Positions 6,878 through 16,461 of a stretch of DNA of 16,461 nucleotides are shown piece by piece. Origin of the DNA: Hyphomicrobiaceae bacterium (lineage in GTDB: Bacteria > Pseudomonadota > Alphaproteobacteria > Rhizobiales > HXMU1428-3); NCBI GenBank assembly GCA_028285025.1, contig JANQQH010000346.1, positions 1 to 16,461 on the forward strand, written 5' to 3'. The notes under the pieces are model-generated. The model was not told the origin of the DNA. It searched no databases and saw only the letters and a list, made by a program, of their open reading frames with translations. Every line of letters starts with the position of its first letter. Position 1 is the first letter of the stretch. Made by a program: the position numbers and the translations under genes.

Positions 6878-7504
6878 TTAAGTATGCTCAATCGCAATCC
6901 TCATCAGGTCAGGTAATTTCTTAACCCCCAATTTGGATTTGAGCTGGGTCGCGCAATTGGCAACAGTTTTATAACTCAAGTTCAACTGTTCGGCGATGTC
7001 GCCATGACTTTTACCCTCACCGATTAATTTTAAAATTTGCAATTCGCGCCCAGTTAAATCCTCTAGACGGTTTGAAGTTTTGCCAGTGTTCAAAATCGCA
7101 ATTTGTGCAGCCATGTCATCTTCTAAAAAAACATTGTCAGCTAAGATTGTTTCAATTGCCAAAATAAATTGATCAAGGCCAGAACTTTTTGTTAAAAACC
7201 CATCAGCACCAGCTTCTAAAGATTTTGTCGCAAAAACCGGATCATCATGCATGCTAAAGGCCAGCAGTTTAATATGGGGATGATGGATGCTAAAATGCTC
7301 GATCAAAGCAAGCCCCCCTATGCCTGGCAGGCCAATATCAACAATCACCAGATCTGGATGTTCTTTTTCAACTGTGGCAATGCCCTCATCACAATCAGCA
7401 GCTTCCAATATGGTTTGAAAACCAGCTTCAGTTAAAAGGTTGCGACAGCCAATATGGGTGACTGGGTGATCATCAATAACAAGTACGATAAGGTCTTTAT
7501 TCAT
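6878..7504 (-). CDS. NarL/FixJ-family response regulator
   Basis: A 208-residue transcription factor of a two-component system. The receiver domain (residues 4-120) has the acidic pair D11-D12, phospho-acceptor D56 in VIVDIGLPG, the conserved Ser84 position and Lys106 in FLTKS, so it should be phosphorylatable. A LuxR-type HTH follows at about 147-205 (LTGRELQILKLIGEGKSHGDIAEQLNLS). The recognition helix region reads YKTVANCATQLKSKLGV, where most relatives have TVxxHxxxIxxKL; the His is replaced by Cys184. It is encoded 74 bases downstream of the histidine kinase on the same strand, so the two form a cognate pair. Targets cannot be inferred. Confidence 0.93.
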   Translation of the reverse strand: MNKDLIVLVIDDHPVTHIGCRNLLTEAGFQTILEAADCDEGIATVEKEHPDLVIVDIGLPGIGGLALIEHFSIHHPHIKLLAFSMHDDPVFATKSLEAGADGFLTKSSGLDQFILAIETILADNVFLEDDMAAQIAILNTGKTSNRLEDLTGRELQILKLIGEGKSHGDIAEQLNLSYKTVANCATQLKSKLGVKKLPDLMRIAIEHT

Positions 7505-7578
7505 AATAACGATCGTAGATTAAAAGGGGTTTATAACATACATAAAACAGCACTTTTAGAAAAATCATCCCCTTACTC

Positions 7579-8994
7579 TTATTGAGCAAACTGAATACGC
7601 GCTTCCACTTTAACACCTTGAGGAGAATTTTCTGAAATAGAAAACACCCCGCCCAAAGCTGCAATGCGTTCCTCTAATCCAGTGATGCCATGGCCTGGCT
7701 GAGACGTTTCAGAGATGCCAACGCCATCATCACGCACACTCATAGTAAGTTCAGTGTTTTTCCCCACTTCTTTGTCCTGAAGATTAATTAAGTGATCTTG
7801 TTGTATATCAATCATGACATTTTTAGCCTTCGAATGACGCGCCACATTAGTCAAAGATTCTTGAATAAAACGATAAACAGTTAAATCAATGGTTTCACCA
7901 AAGCTAGGCAAAGGGGAAGGCATCTCTAACTGCCAAGTAATATGGTTATAGCGCACCCTGAATGTGCCAACGAGCTTTTCGATTAATTCAGAAAGGTCAA
8001 TTTCCCCAAGCGCCATTGGTCTAAGCTGGTTCAGTAAATCTCGATTGCACGCTTCCATATGTGAAACAATATCTAACACAGATTGCATCTTTTCTTGAAA
8101 AGGCCGATTATTAGCCTCATCTTGCTTTTGCATATGGTTGCGCACTGAAGTTGCATTAGATTTGATACCAAACAAACAGGGTCCAAACTCATCATGGAGT
8201 TCTTGGGCAATGTGGCGACGTTCTTGATCTTGAACGGTCACAATGCGTTGAGATAGTCTTTCTCGCTCTTTAGAGACAGTATCTAATTTACGTGCCAAAT
8301 CATTAAATCCTTGCCCAATGATTGAAAGGTCAGGACTAGAAATTTTTGAAATTCGATATTTAAAATTGCCAGCCTCTAAATTTTTCATGCCTTCAGTAAT
8401 TGAGCCAATCGGTTGTAAAGCTCGACCAAGAGCAACATGTATAGAAATCAATAATATGAGCAAAGAGATCGCGGCAATTTTTATCAAAATAACGATATCA
8501 GCCCAAATTTCATTCATCTCGTCTAACGGTTCAACGCTTAAGGTAACGTAGCCCAATTCTTGTGACCCAAAACGAATAGGCGTACTAGTGACCTCATGAT
8601 GAGGCCACAACAAAGACCGAAACCATAATGGGCTTTCTTTTTTGGTATCTTTTTTTATTTCATCTTCTGATAATTGGTAGGCCGGATTGCCCAGAACTTC
8701 CCTGTCCTTATCGTTATAAACGCGAATTTTGATATGGCGAATTTCGCCAAATTTAACTGGCAGCGTTTCTAAAAACTGTTCAAAAGTTATAAAGTTTGGA
8801 ATGGTCTTGGTACTTTCCTTAATTAAAGAATTAGCCAAAATACGGCTCGCTGTAACCTCGTTTTGAATGGCAGAGCGCGCATTGGAAAGTAAAAATACAC
8901 CCGATACAAGAATGGTAATAACAGAAAGTATAATAAAAATAATCATCAGCCGGGAACGAAGGGATAAAGCAGGCATAATCTTTCTTACCAACAA
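7579..8994 (-). CDS. Membrane sensor histidine kinase (HAMP, HisKA_3, HATPase_c)
   Basis: A 471-residue inner-membrane sensor kinase. Membrane helix 1 (about 15-36) and helix 2 (about 167-189) enclose a ~130-residue periplasmic sensor domain similar in style to the LapD/MoxY N-terminal domains. A HAMP linker covers about 190-243. The HisKA_3 dimerisation domain holds QERRHIAQELHDEFG with phospho-acceptor His267. The HATPase_c domain has the N box (QESLTNVARHS, Asn383), RDDGVG (421-426) and GHGITGLEERI. The Gln of the DxxxQ phosphatase motif usual after the histidine in this family is Pro272 here. It would phosphorylate the response regulator encoded just downstream. The signal is unknown. The next gene upstream is a tRNA on the opposite strand. 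Confidence 0.92.
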   Translation of the reverse strand: MLVRKIMPALSLRSRLMIIFIILSVITILVSGVFLLSNARSAIQNEVTASRILANSLIKESTKTIPNFITFEQFLETLPVKFGEIRHIKIRVYNDKDREVLGNPAYQLSEDEIKKDTKKESPLWFRSLLWPHHEVTSTPIRFGSQELGYVTLSVEPLDEMNEIWADIVILIKIAAISLLILLISIHVALGRALQPIGSITEGMKNLEAGNFKYRISKISSPDLSIIGQGFNDLARKLDTVSKERERLSQRIVTVQDQERRHIAQELHDEFGPCLFGIKSNATSVRNHMQKQDEANNRPFQEKMQSVLDIVSHMEACNRDLLNQLRPMALGEIDLSELIEKLVGTFRVRYNHITWQLEMPSPLPSFGETIDLTVYRFIQESLTNVARHSKAKNVMIDIQQDHLINLQDKEVGKNTELTMSVRDDGVGISETSQPGHGITGLEERIAALGGVFSISENSPQGVKVEARIQFAQ

Positions 8995-9423: not shown

Positions 9424-10049
9424 CTATCCGTCTGAAATCAAATCTGTAATTTTAGTATCAATCACATTAGGCATTTTATTTAAGGTTTCTATGGCGTCAT
9501 CATTCTGAACATGTGCATAGCGCTGGGTTGTGCCTATATCTGTATAACCTAACACAACCTGAATCTCCTTAATATCACTCGCACCAAATTGTCTAAGCCA
9601 AGTGGCACCGATATGACGCATGTCACGCCAACGCAAATCTTCTCGCCCAGCAAGTTTTCTTGCTCTCTCCCACGCCTTACGCCGGTTTGTTAGGTCAAAT
9701 ACCTTCAAAGGATCATTTGTCGTCTTACTGGCGAGCTTGAGAACTTTTAAGCAAATATCATTTAAGAGAATGCGCCTCTTGCCCGTCTTACCATTTACCC
9801 AACAAAATCGTTCATTAAAATATATATCAGGTTTTACAAGTTCGCGCGTCTCGCCCAAACGGGCCATGCTATAAAGAGACCACAGAGCTGCTAGTTTTAT
9901 ATTTAATGGCAGAAATGACATGATTGAGGCCATTTCTTCAGGGGAACAATAGACATCTCTTTCTTTTGGTTCTTTTTGACGATGTGTTGACCAATCTATT
10001 TTCCCTACCTCTTCACCCCATTTTTTCTCAGCATAATTTATGGCGCTCT
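9424..10049 (-). pseudogene. Tyrosine recombinase (phage-type integrase), C-terminal remnant
   Basis: The frame is open from the IS3 boundary (10049) to the stop at 9424, about 207 codons, more than the Met-initiated 169. The extra part reads SAINYAEKKWG...VGKIDWSTHRQKEPKERDVYCSPEEM, typical of the segment before the catalytic core. Core residues seen: Arg in YSMARLGETREL, Lys in GKTGKRR, the RH of DMRHIGATWL, and Tyr of TQRYAHV. The first His of HxxR is Asp and the usual LGHSS His is Tyr, so activity may be weak even if complete. The N-terminal half is missing: the IS3 element abuts here and its far side is unrelated DNA. Position next to tRNA-Pro indicates a former integrative element. The gene is surely non-functional as it stands. 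Confidence 0.85.
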
Positions 10050-10074
10050 TGTCAAGCCCCCTGAGTATGCGCCA
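10050..10074 (+). repeat. IS3 terminal inverted repeat (orfB side)
   Basis: Begins TGTCAAGCCCC and ends GCCA. It pairs imperfectly with the other end (shared TGTC, AGCCCC and GCCA blocks). The orfB stop codon (10052-10054 on the complementary strand) lies inside it. Confidence 0.65.
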
Positions 10075-10921
10075 GTTTTAGGGTCGTAGTTTCAGGGATT
10101 GGCGGTCTCATATTTAAGGCCTGATGTGGTCGGATATAATTGTATTGTTTGAGCCATTGATTGATCACGGTCTGAGCTTCCCTTATCGTTGCAAACCATT
10201 GAGCATTGAGAACTTCATTGCGTAGTGTCCCATTAAATCGTTCGTTATAACCGTTTTCCCAAGGGCTGCCTGGATAAATGCGGATTGGGCTTATACCGAC
10301 ACGCTTCAGCCAGCTTTGCAAAGTTTCAGAGACAAACTCCGGGCCATTATCTGAGCGAATAAAGTCTGGCTTGCCATGTTTGATAATGAGCGGGTAAAGA
10401 ACCTCTAGGACATCCGCCGCGCCCATCTTGTGAGATACATGTACGGTCAGAGCCTGACGGCTATATTCCTCCATCAATGTCAGCATCTTGTAAGCTCTTC
10501 CATTGGAGAGCTTGTCATGGACAAAATCAATCGACCAGATATGGTTTTGATATTTAGGGTGAAGACGGATAACAGAGCTGTCTTTGTGATAAAGCCGCTT
10601 GCGTTTTTTATGGCGTTTGGGTAGTTGGAGCCCTTCCTTACGCCATAAACGTTCAACTTTCTTGTGATTAATTTGCCAGCCTTCAATCCGCAAAAGCTGG
10701 GTGATTTTGCGATAGCCATAACGGCCATACTGTTTGGCAAGACGGATAAGGTCCAGCCTGAGTGCATTATCATCGTCCCGATCAAAAACACGATATTGCA
10801 TCGTTGACCGGGCAAGCTCAATAACTTTACATGTCCGTCGTTCTGAAGTGTTCAGTTTCTGACGGATATAAATGACAGCTTGACGTAGTTGGTTTGCACT
10901 CAGGCTTGGGGCTTTAGATAA
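10052..10921 (-). CDS. IS3-family transposase OrfB (DDE integrase domain)
   Basis: OrfB supplies the catalytic domain of the OrfAB transposase. The frame is open from 10921 and has no start that fits a free-standing protein near its beginning; the family's N-terminal segment (SANQLRQAVIYIRQKLNTSERRTC) is read upstream of the first ATG (10801). It is therefore expected to be made by -1 frameshifting from orfA, with the shift between about 10903 and 10921. Numbering from the ATG, the DDE triad is D92 (WSIDFVHD), D151 (RSDNGPEF) and E187 (GYNERFNG), with 35 residues between the last two as in retroviral-type integrases. An HTH_21-like region precedes it (YGYRKITQLLRIEGW). All key residues are present, so the element could be active. 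Confidence 0.9.
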   Translation of the reverse strand, partial: LSKAPSLSANQLRQAVIYIRQKLNTSERRTCKVIELARSTMQYRVFDRDDDNALRLDLIRLAKQYGRYGYRKITQLLRIEGWQINHKKVERLWRKEGLQLPKRHKKRKRLYHKDSSVIRLHPKYQNHIWSIDFVHDKLSNGRAYKMLTLMEEYSRQALTVHVSHKMGAADVLEVLYPLIIKHGKPDFIRSDNGPEFVSETLQSWLKRVGISPIRIYPGSPWENGYNERFNGTLRNEVLNAQWFATIREAQTVINQWLKQYNYIRPHQALNMRPPIPETTTLKLAHTQGA

Positions 10922-11187
10922 TCAAGGCTTTCTTTAAGGATCAATTTGTCAAGTTCAAGATCAGCCACAATCTTTTTCAGCCGTTGGTTTTCTTTTTCCA
11001 GGGCTTTGAGTTCAGAGAGTTTGGCACGACCCATGCCACCATATTTGCGCCGCCAAACATAATAAGTCTTATCTGAAATGCCTGCTTGACGACAAGCACT
11101 TGCCACATCCATGCCACTGTTTAAATGAACTTCAATCTCACGTAAAAGACGTAATATATCTTCTTCTTTGTACTGCTTCCGAGCCAT
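10900..11187 (-). CDS. IS3-family transposase OrfA (HTH_8 domain)
   Basis: OrfA is the DNA-binding half of the transposase. The 95-residue product has a helix-turn-helix (VASACRQAGISDKTYYVWRRKYGG) and a C-terminal leucine-zipper-like helix (SELKALEKENQRLKKIVADL). I place the start at 11187 (MARKQYKEED) rather than 11199 because GGAGGG sits four bases before it, and family members begin with a similar MxRKxY. Its end overlaps the orfB frame by about 22 bases in the -1 register. The frameshift region contains CTAAAGCCCCAAGCC (minus strand), which is not a textbook A6G slippery site, so the exact shift point is uncertain. Confidence 0.88.
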   Translation of the reverse strand: MARKQYKEEDILRLLREIEVHLNSGMDVASACRQAGISDKTYYVWRRKYGGMGRAKLSELKALEKENQRLKKIVADLELDKLILKESLDYLKPQA

Positions 11188-11225
11188 GAAACCCTCCATT
11201 CCTTTGTAGAGTTTTACTAAATTTA

Positions 11226-11251
11226 TGGCTCAGGTTTAAGGGGCTAGGACA
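11226..11251 (-). repeat. IS3 terminal inverted repeat (orfA side)
   Basis: On the minus strand it begins TGTCCTAGCCCC and ends GAGCCA. One base longer than the opposite repeat. It lies 39 bases upstream of the orfA start. Confidence 0.65.
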
Positions 11252-11950
11252 CGGTGGCTGATAAATGTTTTTTGAAGGTGTATAGAGTTCGCCAGTGTAA
11301 GCCCCCTCGATCCCTTGATGAGGACGCTGATGATTGTAAACCTTTATGAAGCGATCAAACATCTCTTGCTGCCGGAGAAAGTTGAATCCAGGTGGTTTGG
11401 TGGCTGCCTTTGTAAGGGTAAGGTGCATGCGCTCATGTCTGCCGTTTTGCTGTGGGTTACAAAGTTTGATGCGTTCGATGTTAATGCCCAGTTTCAGCCA
11501 CCATACGGATAGTTTAGAGAGACCAAACAAGGCCTGAGGACTGGCAAAAGGGGTTCCATTATCAGTTCTGATTGTATGGGGTAGGCCGAACTCTTTGAAA
11601 GCAGGCTCAAAAACAGCATGCACTGTGGAAATGGCTGGCGCTTTAATCATAGGATATTGGCGGCTCAATTTATCACGGATTTTAGGCGCACCCCAGCTTG
11701 GATATTCTTTCTTTAAGCCCAAAATAGCGCGTTATATCTGAAATGGGAGACGGTTCACTTGACGCTAAGGCTGCCTTGAACGGTCATTAAGACCATCCAG
11801 GCCATAGACCTTATAACACTTGTAAATTTTATAGCCAGTAACATGTGATATCCCAAACGCGCGGCACAACGGGCTCATCTTTTCGCCCTCAAGAAAGCGG
11901 GCAATAAACTTTAATCGTTCATCCATAGGTTTACACTCTTCCCAAGGCAC
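11252..11950 (-). pseudogene. IS481-family transposase, degenerate remnant
   Basis: From GTG at 11950 the frame reads VPWEECKPMDERLKFIARFLEG..., the usual IS481-type beginning, through an HTH (LCRAFGISHVTGYKIY). It then meets two in-frame stops: TAG (11765-11767) where relatives have Tyr after DRSRxP, and TAA (11732-11734) where relatives have Glu before RAILGLKKEYPSWGAPKI. After ISTVHAV the sequence jumps to EPAFKEFGLP, so roughly 80-100 residues with the first catalytic Asp are deleted in frame. The second Asp (RTDNGTPFAS) and Glu (HERMHLTL) remain. The C-terminus is cut by the IS3 element at 11251. The 5' end of the original IS was not located; it may lie in 11951-12040. Confidence 0.82.
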
Positions 11951-12040
11951 CTGGACACTCCCCAAATGCAGGTTGTGTAAACAATGTCTCCGGAATAAAC
12001 TGTCAACCATCACTCGATAAGGTCACAAAGAAACCACTGA

Positions 12041-13864
12041 TCAGAAAGTTTTGAGATACTCTATTAAGGCCATTGCACCATCGATATCATCTGACCAGTT
12101 GAGTTTATAAGTTTTACTTCCCTGTTTGATGTCTGTGTCATGTCCTTGATTACTGAAGGCTGGGAACAATGTTGTGTCGAAAATATACGCTTTGGTTTTT
12201 TTGTCTTTTTCTGAAAAAGGCAATTGCCAAGAATAGCCTAACTTGGATTGATCGTAATCGATTCTGCTCTTGACAAAAGCGCTGGGCCGACTGGTTGGAA
12301 CCAATAAGTGATAAAGGGTAGGCACTGAACCATTATGCAAATAGGGGCCTTGGGACCAGATCCCCCCCAGAGGGAGTGCATTATAGCCAAGATGATCATT
12401 TGGGTCGGGCATAATCAGCTTGTCTTTCCCTTTTAATGAGACAGTTTTATATTGTGCACAAGGTGTTGTTTCTTTCCCATAAACTTTAATCACTGTCTTC
12501 TCAGAACAAATTCGTATTAAACGGTCAGCTCCAGCTTTTCTGATAGCTTCAGTAATCACCTGTGCGCGGTCCATATTAGTGTTAATCGAGCTATAAACAG
12601 TGCCATTATTCGGTCGATGGCAATTCAGGCAGTTTTGCTCAAAAAGGTCTTTTCCTTTTTTGGCTAACTCAAGATCAACATCAAAGGGATAAACAGGGGC
12701 GGGCATGTTATCCAGTAATTTGACAGAATAAGCAGCGACTCTCAAATCATTATCTGCAAGGCCCACTGATAGTTGAGCGGCGATATTACGATAAATCGGA
12801 ATAGGGATATTCCCATTCCACTGCCCCCCGCCGGAGTGAAATTTTGTCTTAGTTTTATCCCAGGAAACAGCTCTTTTATTTTGCTCCCAAACGGCTTGAA
12901 AATCAGTTATGCCAGCTGTTGGCGGTAAAATAAAAAAATAAGCCAGTAGACGGGAAAAGAACCCATCTACATTAACATAAGCACTTGATGTTCCAAAGCC
13001 AGAAGCATCAACCATGCCAGGAAATCCGGCAACAAATTTTTCAGAGATGTGATTATAACTATTATCCCTTAACGCAATCAGGGCTTGATAGTTTTTTTCA
13101 GTTTTGGTTATGAATTGACTTGCAAGTGTTAAAGCTCGTTCTTTAAATAATTCAATTTGTTTTTTTTCATATTCGGTGTCTAGCACTATATTTTTATAAC
13201 TGTAATGATTATAAAAATAATTCGGATCCTGGGCTTCAATTGTTTCTAAAGACTTCAGTAATGCAGCTACAAAAAGGTTTGCCTTTTTCGTCTTGTCTGT
13301 TTCACCTTGAAATATTTTTTGCAACGTCTTGTAAACGTTCACGCGAAACTGAACAACGTTGAACTCAGAATTAACCCCACCATCAAGATAAACGACTTTC
13401 CCTTGCTCTTTTTTGGCGCGTCCAAAATGACAGGCCGCACATGTGAACGTTGCGTAATCAATTTTTGCGCTCAAAGGATTATCGCGATTGAACACGCTGA
13501 TACCTATGCCCCTTGCAATTGGAAAACTAGGCTCTCTTTCATCAATAAATAAACCGACGCGATCGAGAAAGTTAGATTGGCTTCCCCATAATTCTGGTGC
13601 AAGAATTGGAAGCAATTTCAGCATAATGTATGGGGTGCCATCAGTTTGACTAAACGCAAATTTTGAAAACCAGTCATAGGGTCTTTGATTGGCTTGAATA
13701 TAGTCTGCTAATTCAGTGTCTCGTTTGGCCTGTTCTAACGCCCAATTTAGAGGAACTTCTTGGGCTTTGTACTCAGGTTTTTGCGTTTCAGCTCTTAAAC
13801 TTCCATGCCCCAAGATCATCATACCCAAACTAAGGATAAACATTAGTTTTTGAGAATAATCCAT
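12041..13864 (-). CDS. Secreted di-heme c-type cytochrome, RoxA/cytochrome c peroxidase-like (607 aa)
   Basis: A Sec signal peptide (hydrophobic residues about 7-20, likely cleavage after RA25) exports the protein, which would receive two covalent hemes at CAACH (142-146) and CLNCH (412-416). The C-terminal block PLGGIWSQGPYLHNGSVPTLYHLL (499-521) is the signature of the MauG/di-heme peroxidase superfamily, and the ~600-residue length with heme 1 after a ~140-residue N-terminal part fits RoxA-like proteins better than ~350-residue CcpA-type peroxidases. Two further cysteines, 453 and 469, could form a disulfide. A shared plan with the 678-residue neighbour (CxACH, then a DGGxxxxFxxxxF segment, then CLxCH and YLHNGS) marks them as paralogues. 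An AAGGA ribosome site lies 7 bases before the ATG. Likely role: periplasmic or secreted oxidation or dioxygenation; substrate unknown. Confidence 0.82.
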   Translation of the reverse strand: MDYSQKLMFILSLGMMILGHGSLRAETQKPEYKAQEVPLNWALEQAKRDTELADYIQANQRPYDWFSKFAFSQTDGTPYIMLKLLPILAPELWGSQSNFLDRVGLFIDEREPSFPIARGIGISVFNRDNPLSAKIDYATFTCAACHFGRAKKEQGKVVYLDGGVNSEFNVVQFRVNVYKTLQKIFQGETDKTKKANLFVAALLKSLETIEAQDPNYFYNHYSYKNIVLDTEYEKKQIELFKERALTLASQFITKTEKNYQALIALRDNSYNHISEKFVAGFPGMVDASGFGTSSAYVNVDGFFSRLLAYFFILPPTAGITDFQAVWEQNKRAVSWDKTKTKFHSGGGQWNGNIPIPIYRNIAAQLSVGLADNDLRVAAYSVKLLDNMPAPVYPFDVDLELAKKGKDLFEQNCLNCHRPNNGTVYSSINTNMDRAQVITEAIRKAGADRLIRICSEKTVIKVYGKETTPCAQYKTVSLKGKDKLIMPDPNDHLGYNALPLGGIWSQGPYLHNGSVPTLYHLLVPTSRPSAFVKSRIDYDQSKLGYSWQLPFSEKDKKTKAYIFDTTLFPAFSNQGHDTDIKQGSKTYKLNWSDDIDGAMALIEYLKTF

Positions 13865-13994
13865 ATGATAATCCTTAGAGTTAGGAAGTGACAGATTAAG
13901 TCTAGCATAGCCAAAATTGCATTTTGCGAAAATTCAAGCAATACTATAATTACCTAACAACTTTGATGAAAATCGTTTTTGATAAATTATTCGT

Positions 13995-14010
13995 GAAAAC
14001 ATATGTTTTC
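13995..14010. promoter_or_regulatory. Perfect 16-base palindrome, candidate operator
   Basis: GAAAACATATGTTTTC is its own reverse complement. It lies in the 263-base region between the two divergent di-heme cytochrome genes, 130 bases from one start and 117 from the other. No T run follows, so it is not a terminator. A TATAAT (13945-13950) upstream could be the -10 of a plus-strand promoter, which would place the palindrome downstream of its start site, in a repressing position. Binding factor unknown. Confidence 0.45.
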
Positions 14011-14127
14011 GGTTGAATGATGCAAATGTGATAGGTCATACACAACAAAGAGCTGTACAACTGAATTTAAAAAATTTCTTAAAGAATTCGCTCAAGGCAA
14101 TCTTTATATTTTACCTTTCGGAGCTTA

Positions 14128-16164
14128 ATGATTATGCTAAAGAGATTTCTTTTATTTATTGCCATGATAATCACTATCATCGGTGTTGGTTTTTTTTATT
14201 TACGCGATAATCCTTATCGGGCGTACAATAAATCACCGGATGACCCTGTTCAATTGATCGCTCTAGATCAAAATTGGTCAGAGGCTAAGAGGGCCTTTTG
14301 GTATGGTGCAACTCAAGGATCCCGTCTTATTCCGCTAGCTTGGTTGGAAGCTCTTGAAATGCCGGGCGCTATAGACCTGTTTATGGCACCTGAACATGTA
14401 AAAAAATTCAATTTAATTCCTAGAAAAGTGGATGTTCCAGATCGTAAATCTGATGCGCAGTTAGCTCTTGGATTTGTAATTGATAAAAGTTCTGACAAAT
14501 ATCTAGAGCGAACAAAACTGCGCTGGAAAAACGACCAAACTGACAATGAAGCTTGGGTGGGGCTAAACTGCTCAGCATGTCACACGTCGCAAATTCAATT
14601 CCAAGGAAAAGATATTAGAATTGACGGTGGCGCTTCCCTATTTGATTTCCAAGCTTTCATGGAAACTTTGAACTCTGCTCTTGAACAAACCTACAGTGAT
14701 CAGGTGAAATGGGATCGGTTTGCGCAACGTGTTTTATCTGACGATAACGATAATCCAGACAATAAAGATAAGCTGCGTAAAGCGTTTAAAAAGTTGCTGG
14801 ATTGGCAAAAGAAAGAAGCGCAAGTCAATAAAACACCAATGAGATATGGGTATGGCAGAATTGATGCATTTGGCCATATATTTAATAAGGTTGGGTTATT
14901 GGTCAACGATGAGGCTCAATCTTTTGTCCGCTCTGACGCTCCGGTAAGCACGCCCTTTGTTTGGAGCGCCCCCCAATACAATAAAGTTCAATATAATGGT
15001 GCTGCCCCGCGCATCATATTCGGCGGGATTGATGTCGGCGCGATTGGTCGCAATGTTGGTGAGGTTATAGGTGTTTTCGGGGATATTACCCTTAATAAAA
15101 ACCTTGATCTTGATGGATTTCACTCAAGTATTCACCTCAAAAATCTTTATAACCTTGAAGAAGTTTTAAGAGACCTGCGCTCTCCCAAATGGCCAACAGA
15201 AATTTTTGGACCCTTCACAAAAGAAGAACGGGAAAAAGAAGCTGTCCAAATCGAAAGGGGCCGTCATCTATACAATCAAAACTGTCTTTATTGCCACGAT
15301 GTTATTGATAGAACAGATACCAAAAGCAACATTATCGTTCAGGACAATTATTTTATTGAAGCAGCTGATATAGCACCTGAACGGGCAAAAAATTTACCCC
15401 CATATGCAAAGACAAAAAAAATTGAGCCCATTCAAACCGATCCCTGGATGGCATGTAATGCCTATAGCTACAGCTTGAAAACGGGATTATGGAGAAGTGA
15501 AAAACCTCGCTCTATTGATTATGAAAGCATAGGACGCGGCGATCAGCTTATGCTTGGGCAGTCAGTGAAGGCATCAAAATTATTAGCCGTTACCGTGGCA
15601 GGGGTGATGGCAGCAAATAAACAGAATGTGGCCGAACTCATCGGAAATAATTTTTTTAAAATGCCTCATATCCCTTCTGGATTGAGCACCACATTGCAAG
15701 ATGGACCGATTATTAATCTTGATGAATCTTGGAAGAATACATTCCGCCCTGAAGAAAAAACGCTTAGATTAGCCGAATGCAAAAAGGCTTGTAGAGCGTT
15801 TTCTCAAAGCCAAATGAAAGAAGAGAACAATGTTCTTGGTTACACAAGCCGGCCATTGAATGGTATCTGGGCATCCGCTCCTTATTTACATAATGGCTCC
15901 ATACCAACTCTTTATGACCTGTTACTACCGGAGAGTGAAAGACCCAAAACCTTTTGGATGGGTAGCCTGGAATTTGATCCGGAAAAAGTTGGTTATGTTA
16001 CCAAGCAAAGCCTAAAGAATAATTTCTTATTTAAGGTCGGAAATAAAAAAGCAGACGGCTATGAATTTATAGATGGAAATCTGAATAATGGACATGACTA
16101 TGACAATAAAAAATTCACTCATGCAGACCGTATGGCTTTAATCGCTTATCTAAAAACACTTTAA
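14128..16164 (+). CDS. Membrane-anchored RoxA-like di-heme c-type cytochrome (678 aa)
   Basis: An N-terminal hydrophobic segment (about 5-24) without a clear cleavage site suggests a periplasm-facing anchored protein. Residues 48-77 (DQNWSEAKRAFWYGATQGS then LIPLAWLEALE) match the N-terminal hallmark of RoxA-type 'di-heme cytochrome c peroxidases'. Heme motifs are CSACH (148-152) and CLYCH (386-390); PLNGIWASAPYLHNGS (576-591) and RPKTFWMGSLEFDPEKVGY complete the family signature. Extra cysteines are 443, 551 and 555. RoxA oxidatively cleaves polyisoprene; relatives have unknown substrates, so rubber cleavage should not be assumed. CGGAG lies 4 bases before ATG 14128 and 10 before an in-frame ATG at 14134, so either could be the start. 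The paralogous 607-residue gene is divergent. Confidence 0.85.
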   Translation: MIMLKRFLLFIAMIITIIGVGFFYLRDNPYRAYNKSPDDPVQLIALDQNWSEAKRAFWYGATQGSRLIPLAWLEALEMPGAIDLFMAPEHVKKFNLIPRKVDVPDRKSDAQLALGFVIDKSSDKYLERTKLRWKNDQTDNEAWVGLNCSACHTSQIQFQGKDIRIDGGASLFDFQAFMETLNSALEQTYSDQVKWDRFAQRVLSDDNDNPDNKDKLRKAFKKLLDWQKKEAQVNKTPMRYGYGRIDAFGHIFNKVGLLVNDEAQSFVRSDAPVSTPFVWSAPQYNKVQYNGAAPRIIFGGIDVGAIGRNVGEVIGVFGDITLNKNLDLDGFHSSIHLKNLYNLEEVLRDLRSPKWPTEIFGPFTKEEREKEAVQIERGRHLYNQNCLYCHDVIDRTDTKSNIIVQDNYFIEAADIAPERAKNLPPYAKTKKIEPIQTDPWMACNAYSYSLKTGLWRSEKPRSIDYESIGRGDQLMLGQSVKASKLLAVTVAGVMAANKQNVAELIGNNFFKMPHIPSGLSTTLQDGPIINLDESWKNTFRPEEKTLRLAECKKACRAFSQSQMKEENNVLGYTSRPLNGIWASAPYLHNGSIPTLYDLLLPESERPKTFWMGSLEFDPEKVGYVTKQSLKNNFLFKVGNKKADGYEFIDGNLNNGHDYDNKKFTHADRMALIAYLKTL

Positions 16165-16169
16165 AAAAG

Positions 16170-16189
16170 AATGCATATTGGTGCATTTT
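16170..16189 (+). terminator. Weak stem-loop after the 678-aa cytochrome gene
   Basis: AATGCA / TGCATT forms a 6-base stem with a TATTGG loop and a short T tract (four T). It starts 5 bases after the stop codon. The weak stem may only partly stop transcription, so the next gene could share the transcript. Confidence 0.3.
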
Positions 16190-16256
16190 ACGAAAATCAA
16201 AGAAGCTCATCATGCGACGAAATAGCTTGTAGTAAAGGATATGGAACTCAAAGATC

Positions 16257-16461
16257 ATGAGACAAAATAAAATAAAAATTGGGCTTTATATCCTCGCTTT
16301 TGGAACTTTGAGTCTTTGGGTTATTGACCATTTTGAAAATAAAGTCCCAGAAGAAATCAGAGGCGCAAAAAATCTTGAAAAAGCAGCCATTGATACGGTT
16401 GTCAAACTTGTCGTTCAAAATCTTGATGAGTTATATAAAGGCAAAAAAAGTACAGTCCAAA
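16257..16461 (+). CDS. Unidentified protein with N-terminal membrane segment (3' truncated by window)
   Basis: The open frame from ATG 16257 runs to the window end, giving 68 residues. It starts MRQNKIKIGLYILAFGTLSLWVI, a positively charged N-terminus and one hydrophobic helix (about 8-23) suggesting a membrane anchor or uncleaved signal, followed by a charged helical stretch (NLEKAAIDTVVKLVVQNLDELYKGKK). No family can be assigned with confidence. The helical segment loosely recalls the start of catalase-related heme proteins sometimes seen near RoxA-like genes; this is speculation. It lies 92 bases after the di-heme cytochrome gene on the same strand. The ribosome site is poor (AAAG 3-4 bases away, AAAGGA about 20 bases away), so the start is uncertain. 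Confidence 0.55.
   Translation, partial: MRQNKIKIGLYILAFGTLSLWVIDHFENKVPEEIRGAKNLEKAAIDTVVKLVVQNLDELYKGKKSTVQ

Follow-up and report, generated by a model that had tools for sequence, protein, structure and literature searches.

A set of three genes, for two RoxA-like di-heme c-type proteins (P1 and P2) and a catalase-related hemoprotein (P3), was identified in a 16,461-nucleotide stretch of DNA from a Hyphomicrobiaceae bacterium (contig JANQQH010000346.1, assembly GCA_028285025.1). This stretch, referred to as the window, is the whole of the contig (C221 in our numbering) and belongs to a fragmented genome of 2.41 Mb in 549 contigs that is 90% complete. Direct observations comprise the three genes with their heme motifs, a RoxA fold in the models of P1 and P2, and the recurrent linkage of the genes in other genomes; P1, P2 and P3 probably form one functional unit. 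We tentatively propose that this unit may serve as an extracytoplasmic (periplasmic) module for the oxygenation of lipids or fatty-acyl chains, with substrate and reactions deduced from relatives and neighboring genes.

P1 and P2 as distant RoxA-like paralogues

The initial annotation had described two divergent RoxA-like di-heme open reading frames of 607 and 678 amino acids, carrying two heme motifs and a C-terminal motif each, and this description was confirmed (Table 1). The two frames are separated by 263 bp. Residue conservation was evaluated in 44 aligned rows for each protein. In P1, both Cys and the His of heme 1, C412 and C415 of heme 2 and H510 of the C-terminal block were present in 44/44 rows, and H416 of heme 2 in 43/44; in P2, both Cys and the His of either heme as well as H588 of the C-terminal block were kept throughout (44/44). 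The scores to the Pfam model RoxA-like_Cyt-c (59.3 bits for P1, 66.1 bits for P2) were well above the cut-off of 26.7 bits, so the resemblance is not due to chance. RoxA was the best fold match of both models, followed by MauG in the case of P2, and was the only solved structure matched by sequence at E ≤0.001, chiefly via the C-terminal block. BLASTP gave a good alignment of P1 with P2 only over the C-terminal 131 residues (40%, 2e-20), and the comparison of whole profiles covered only the C-terminal 109 columns; when restricted to the two-heme region, an E value of 7.7e-10 was obtained. On the basis of these alignments, P1 and P2 are distant paralogues.

At the N terminus, P1 has a Sec-signal-like stretch with the last residues ...SLRAET (judged from hydrophobicity only), and P2 begins with a helix of strong hydrophobicity (highest mean over 17 residues of 2.81 on the Kyte-Doolittle scale). 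These N termini fit the contrast in export mode noted in the initial annotation. The contrast is not general, as a lipobox was found by regular expression in three P1 rows (P0012, P0015 and P0019) among the 14 rows listed of 44.

P2 is a full-length member of NF040606, the di-heme-cytochrome C peroxidase family (539.2 bits over residues 50-677, cut-off 150 bits), and P1 falls just short of it (131.1 bits); the family name is based on homology, and no tested member was seen. The NCBIfam models for RoxA, RoxB and RoxC gave 36.2, 47.0 and 46.2 bits with P1, and 49.7, 62.4 and 57.9 bits with P2, far under their cut-offs of 900-1000 bits. Plain RoxA/RoxB membership was therefore rejected, as the initial annotation had supposed. 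Neither P1 nor P2 matched PF03150 (CCP_MauG) at E 0.001, while a control di-heme protein from the same genome scored 179.9 bits. P1 and P2 share the two hemes with MauG and the bacterial cytochrome c peroxidases but are about twice their size. With the rubber oxygenases RoxA and RoxB they have in common the fold, the two c-type hemes and the C-terminal motif, but the pocket residues differ by motif alignment. A Gln occupies the position of RoxA F301 in 44/44 P1 and 44/44 P2 rows, in a register set by profile alignment and by our matching of RoxA F301-W302 to the Q-W/Y motif. For the rubber oxygenases a hydrophobic distal pocket containing F301 and F317 and lacking an acid-base residue is expected. 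Near the RoxA F317 region, motif and profile alignment alone placed Ala363 in P1 (44/44) opposite an invariant Glu312 in P2.

P3 and the recurrence of the gene set

The initial annotation took the pair as the unit, but P3, which starts at 16257 and thus outside the region it had covered, belongs to it too. The contig ends 68 codons on. Of the 68 residues encoded in the window, 66 are identical to P0249, a 379-amino acid PF00199 protein from a 21167-base contig; P0121, a P2 relative with 93% identity, lies on a contig likewise of 21167 bases. The window P3 also matched the catalase-like gene of genome G049 (9.8e-9), and in both G001 and G049 a 380-amino acid catalase-family gene is located directly 3' of P2. 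Because its start is hydrophobic, P3 is probably membrane-anchored like P2. The heme residues were read in relatives of P3, the 68 residues of the window stopping before those positions. His73 (distal) as well as Arg351 and Tyr355 (proximal RxxxY) were found in 35/35 aligned proteins, the distal Asn in 29/35, and an Ala preceding the distal His in 33/35.

The PF00199 cut-off of 25 bits was exceeded by the P3-type proteins of G049 (25.1), G1320 (26.6), G1418 (27.2) and M. currus (28.8); those of G001 (21.9), NGR234 (21.1) and G699 (21.1) scored below it, and that of P. yeei gave no match. Among solved structures, the P3 profile matched best to 3e4w (2e-19), which we take to be the M. avium catalase-related protein, followed by catalases (2.4e-15) and the coral allene oxide synthase 1u5u (4.2e-8). 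The y4iL-like catalase domain CD08152 is named for the y4iL protein of Rhizobium sp. NGR234. An alignment of the G049 P3 with the product of the catalase gene in the NGR234 cluster shows 31% identity, and the latter gene is presumably y4iL. In distinction from y4iL, the window P3 and its near relatives have a hydrophobic N terminus and lie beside P2.

The gene content of 24 loci was verified with one uniform BLAST, which left all counts unchanged. All three genes were present at 7 of 11 P1 loci, in three gene orders. P1 and P2 are divergent with P3 after P2 in G000 (the genome of the window), G001, G049 and G1225; the order is P3-P1-P2 in tandem in G699 and G1418, the contig end cutting P2 in both; and the S. 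fredii NGR234 plasmid has the order P1, catalase, hypothetical, P2 and patatin. As G1225 and G1418 were reached via P2, the seven loci are not an unbiased sample; among loci reached through P1, 5/9 had all three genes. When the longest open reading frames are taken, neighboring genes of the trio share 4 and 23 bases in G1418, and gaps of 34 and 35 bases separate them in G699. In view of these tandem operons, divergence is one layout of several and not the defining feature as initially assumed: a survey of genomes for co-occurrence did reveal recurrence, but with the divergent arrangement in only four genomes and with P1 and P2 each also occurring alone. No further common neighbor of the trio loci was found among open reading frames of at least 100-120 amino acids; smaller ones, among which a substrate could be encoded, were not examined.

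P1 is rare. At E 1e-60 it was detected in 3/398 genomes of a phylum draw and 2/385 of a class draw, both of which include the genome of the window, and in 0/48, 2/368 and 2/143 genomes of further draws. The draws overlap, those of 368 and 143 (the latter made up of relatives of G846) yielding the same two genomes, and the draw of 48 (a class draw around G065) contained no positive control. A scan of genome contigs with P1 gave a single locus, with a 35-residue match in a Bacteroidetes metagenome-assembled genome. On plasmids, P1 matches of at least 80% of the length were obtained in 5/45 records, namely four P. yeei plasmids (one opened) and NGR234; in P. yeei, genes for a catalase family protein and an animal haem peroxidase accompany P1. 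P2 was found at E 1e-100 in 11/397 genomes of the order, together with P1 and P3 at five of the 11 loci and with P3 but not P1 at one (G1320). Co-occurrence was also examined by assembly fingerprints (the length of the longest contig), using the best 120 relatives per protein and 500 jittered lists, with few contigs in common with the opened loci. P2 and P3 shared 15 fingerprints, the jittered lists giving 0.8 on average and never more than 5.

A quick tree was built from 55 RoxA-like proteins. P1 formed one supported group (15 rows, SH-aLRT, a likelihood-ratio branch support, of 99), in line with the separate clade that had been anticipated. The four divergent genomes grouped together for P1 as well as for P2 (support of 100 each), as did the pairs G049 + G1225 (98 and 99) and G699 + G1418 (100 and 100); the window and G001 were paired on the P1 side (82) and not resolved on the P2 side. 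The P1 and P2 branchings of the six genomes having both proteins in the tree were without conflict, which fits joint inheritance and, with the recurrence of the pair, supports the single functional unit proposed at the outset. Catalase linkage is scattered over the P2 branch (seven changes); P2 rows from the protein database for which no P3 was listed on their contig were assigned to 'other', a label that does not imply absence. The deep order of the tree is unsafe because long branches meet at its base.

Other contexts of P1- and P2-type genes were also seen. In G846 (L069 9154-12328) and G976 (L071 948-3115), a P1-type gene lies directly 3' of one whose product combines rhodanese and metallo-beta-lactamase and begins with a signal-like sequence, which hints at sulfur chemistry in this lineage. 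Two Rhizobium plasmids (L041 7600-14254 and L058 5699-12366) each carry a helix-turn-helix regulator gene ahead of a P2-type gene, with S8/S53 peptidase and serine protease genes after it. Another tandem pair of RoxA-like cytochromes, distinct from P1 and P2 and close to a gene for a larger CxxCH protein, occurs on R. ruizarguesonis plasmid p4 (L062 4828-14771) and in G036 (L045 8276-16420); the R. ruizarguesonis locus additionally contains NADH:flavin oxidoreductase, GMC oxidoreductase and patatin genes.

Candidate function and known systems

A comparable two-gene system is already known, and the unit described here is larger by P3. The relevant sections of PMC4496055 describe PA2077 and PA2078 of P. 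aeruginosa ('FadCcp') as a 10S-dioxygenase and a 7,10-diol synthase, respectively. PA2077 converts oleic acid to 10-H(P)OME, which the system then processes further, and requires both of its hemes, whereas those of PA2078 were dispensable in the published mutants; overexpression of PA2077 is toxic, and co-expression of PA2078 relieves the toxicity (PMC4496055). Like P1 and P2, as described in these sections, they are two paralogous RoxA-like di-heme proteins encoded by adjacent genes and exported (for P1 and P2 judged from the hydrophobic N termini), and both have Gln at the position of RoxA F301 (PMC4496055). Their C-terminal motif is PYFHNGSVP, compared with PYLHNGSVP in P1 and PYLHNGSIP in P2, and their heme-to-heme spacing is 245 and 235, compared with 270 in P1 and 238 in P2. 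A transmembrane helix is predicted in PA2077 and none in PA2078, paralleling P2 and P1, respectively. In contrast, PA2077 and PA2078 form a tandem operon, and the Results of that paper give no catalase-related partner. The two share 43% identity, far more than P1 and P2 do; the systems are compared here by their published description. Given this precedent, substrate and chemistry are less open than the initial annotation had claimed. The set of P1, P2 and P3 as such was not found in the titles and abstracts of open-licence literature listed by the searches made for it (in one of them 20 of 174 papers).

For the proposed lipid module, a RoxA-fold di-heme enzyme, more likely P1, would use its N-terminal heme to add O2 to an unsaturated fatty-acyl chain, giving a hydroperoxide as PA2077 does with oleate. 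This hydroperoxide, toxic if left (as reported when PA2077 is overexpressed), would be converted at once by P3 and/or P2. P3 could act as hydroperoxide lyase, allene oxide synthase or organic-hydroperoxide peroxidase, and P2, with its invariant Glu where P1 has Ala, might also be a hydroperoxide converter; oxylipin-type signals or detoxified lipids would result. The three genes are most simply explained by a di-heme enzyme that makes a hydroperoxide and is encoded next to a hemoprotein that consumes it. This also fits the lipid-type neighbors, i.e., the patatin gene in S. fredii and, in P. yeei, the animal-haem-peroxidase gene next to P1 and P3. In addition, a P3-type gene adjoins an animal haem peroxidase gene in M. 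currus and is fused to one in Phyllobacterium, with a patatin gene near. A Nostoc linoleate 10S-dioxygenase with a catalase-related 10S-hydroperoxide lyase was reportedly described by Brash in 2014. By its title, this pair likewise combines a heme dioxygenase with a catalase-related hemoprotein, but the dioxygenase is a cyclooxygenase relative and not a RoxA-fold di-heme protein. The passage of PMC11719350 mentioning a catalase-heme dioxygenase fusion indicates that such partners occur. A more specific and more speculative version would be an entirely periplasmic oxylipin pathway, in which a P1 dioxygenase replaces cyclooxygenase or lipoxygenase, P2 rearranges or uses the hydroperoxide by means of an acid-base Glu, and membrane-anchored P3 cleaves or dehydrates it.

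Several observations weigh against a lipid-oxygenating unit of three. P1 was without P2 or P3 in G241, G846 and G976 (3/11 loci, in the stretches seen, the G976 locus being split across two contig ends). Neither P1 nor P3 was present at 5/11 P2 loci of the order (one of them, G1336, on a contig of only 4.7 kb), and 7/8 P2-like plasmid loci lacked both, NGR234 being the exception. P1 shared only five assembly fingerprints with P2 and three with P3, and some jittered lists attain as many. The closest P1 to that of S. fredii comes from P. yeei, and the S. fredii P2 belongs to another P2 branch, so the NGR234 cluster may have assembled separately; the P1-like gene of pNGR234a (L038 8908-10831) looks broken, as it spans two frames that overlap and are annotated as distinct hypothetical proteins. 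A haem-peroxidase partner was found at only 2/5 further P3 plasmid loci opened, the other three being without one. Finally, the P3 profile ranks true catalases above the coral allene oxide synthase. LodA/GoxA oxidases make H2O2. Domains of the y4iL type are also fused to these oxidases: five P3 matches inside LodA/GoxA-annotated genes were present among the best 40 of 113 plasmid records, and a passage of PMC4417212 describes such fusions as well.

The last two points make H2O2 handling the main rival. P1 and P2 would then be large periplasmic cytochrome c peroxidases using respiratory electrons on H2O2 or organic peroxides, and the catalase P3 would clear the rest. We consider this a serious alternative, though less likely than the lipid module. 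The peroxidase name of NF040606 derives from homology, the closest fold is that of RoxA, which is reported to be without peroxidase activity, and P1 has Ala363 throughout where P2 has Glu. Neither protein matches CCP_MauG although a di-heme protein of the same genome does, and the patatin and animal-haem-peroxidase neighbors would be left unexplained.

A MauG- or MbnH-like maturation, with a partner protein (possibly P3 or a neighbor) instead of a small molecule being oxidized by the di-heme enzymes at some of its residues, is improbable. It would agree with MauG as second best fold match of P2 and with the P2-type genes directly upstream of the peptidase and protease genes on the two Rhizobium plasmids, but the trio loci have no additional common neighbor in the size range searched, and P3 is itself an enzyme-like hemoprotein. 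Even less probable is the absence of a joint function, the three genes travelling together as a mobile or neutral neighborhood. Insertion sequence (IS) elements abut the window P1, some relatives are on plasmids, and P1 and P2 both occur alone; on the other hand, gene orders vary between genomes, the genes are packed or overlapping in two operons, and the P1 and P2 branchings do not conflict. Cleavage of polyisoprenoids or terpenoids in the manner of RoxA/RoxB, for which the best fold match of P1 and P2 would speak, is least probable of all given the low scores to the RoxA, RoxB and RoxC models and the Gln at the position of F301 (by motif alignment), changes of which impair RoxA.

Surroundings of the gene set and wider meaning

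The features of the window are compiled in Table 1. An in-frame ATG at 14134 fits the GGAG at 14120-14123 better than the P2 start at 14128. Promoter-like matches were not above chance (9 in 11950-16461 versus 11.9 in shuffles) and little is conserved in the shared region between the four divergent loci; a conserved motif or promoter in this region was therefore rejected. A mobile or decayed segment of IS and recombinase pieces (9424-12013, minus strand) abuts the end of P1. Further away, a LuxR/NarL-type response regulator and a HisKA_3 histidine kinase form a two-component pair (6878-8994, minus strand) that is convergent with a DUF1801 gene. On another contig of G000 (C532, L051 1607-4174), an ordinary CCP_MauG di-heme peroxidase gene lies directly 5' of a HisKA histidine kinase gene.

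Table 1. Positions of the P1, P2 and P3 genes, their motifs and adjacent mobile elements in the window
Feature	Position	Strand	Remarks
P1	12041..13864	-	607 aa, RoxA-fold di-heme c-type protein, Sec-signal-like N-terminus
P1 heme 1 motif CAACH, residues 142-146	13427..13441	-	sequence
P1 heme 2 motif CLNCH, residues 412-416	12617..12631	-	sequence
P1 C-terminal block YLHNGSVPTL, residues 508-517	12314..12343	-	sequence
Intergenic P1/P2 control region, 263 bp, divergent	13865..14127		no promoter or motif shown
P2	14128..16164	+	678 aa, RoxA-fold di-heme c-type protein, N-terminal membrane anchor
P2 heme 1 motif CSACH, residues 148-152	14569..14583	+	sequence
P2 heme 2 motif CLYCH, residues 386-390	15283..15297	+	sequence
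P2 C-terminal block YLHNGSIPTL, residues 586-595	15883..15912	+	sequence
P3 5' part, 68 codons	16257..16461	+	catalase-related hemoprotein, y4iL type, hydrophobic start; contig end cuts gene
IS3-family transposase parts	10052-10801; 10900-11199 (assigned by position)	-	near P1 end
IS481-like fragment	11138-11722	-	near P1 end
Tyrosine recombinase fragment	9424-9933	-	near P1 end

The NF040606 proteins and the y4iL-type 'catalases' owe their names to homology, and their recurrent joining with P1 gives them a testable joint function. If the oxylipin pathway were true, many genes annotated as 'di-heme cytochrome c peroxidase' and 'catalase family protein' would encode lipid-signal enzymes. Signaling by oxygenated fatty acids has been described in P. 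aeruginosa, according to the relevant part of PMC6377657; if oxylipins are made by the unit described here, such signaling would extend to alphaproteobacteria with a new enzyme combination.

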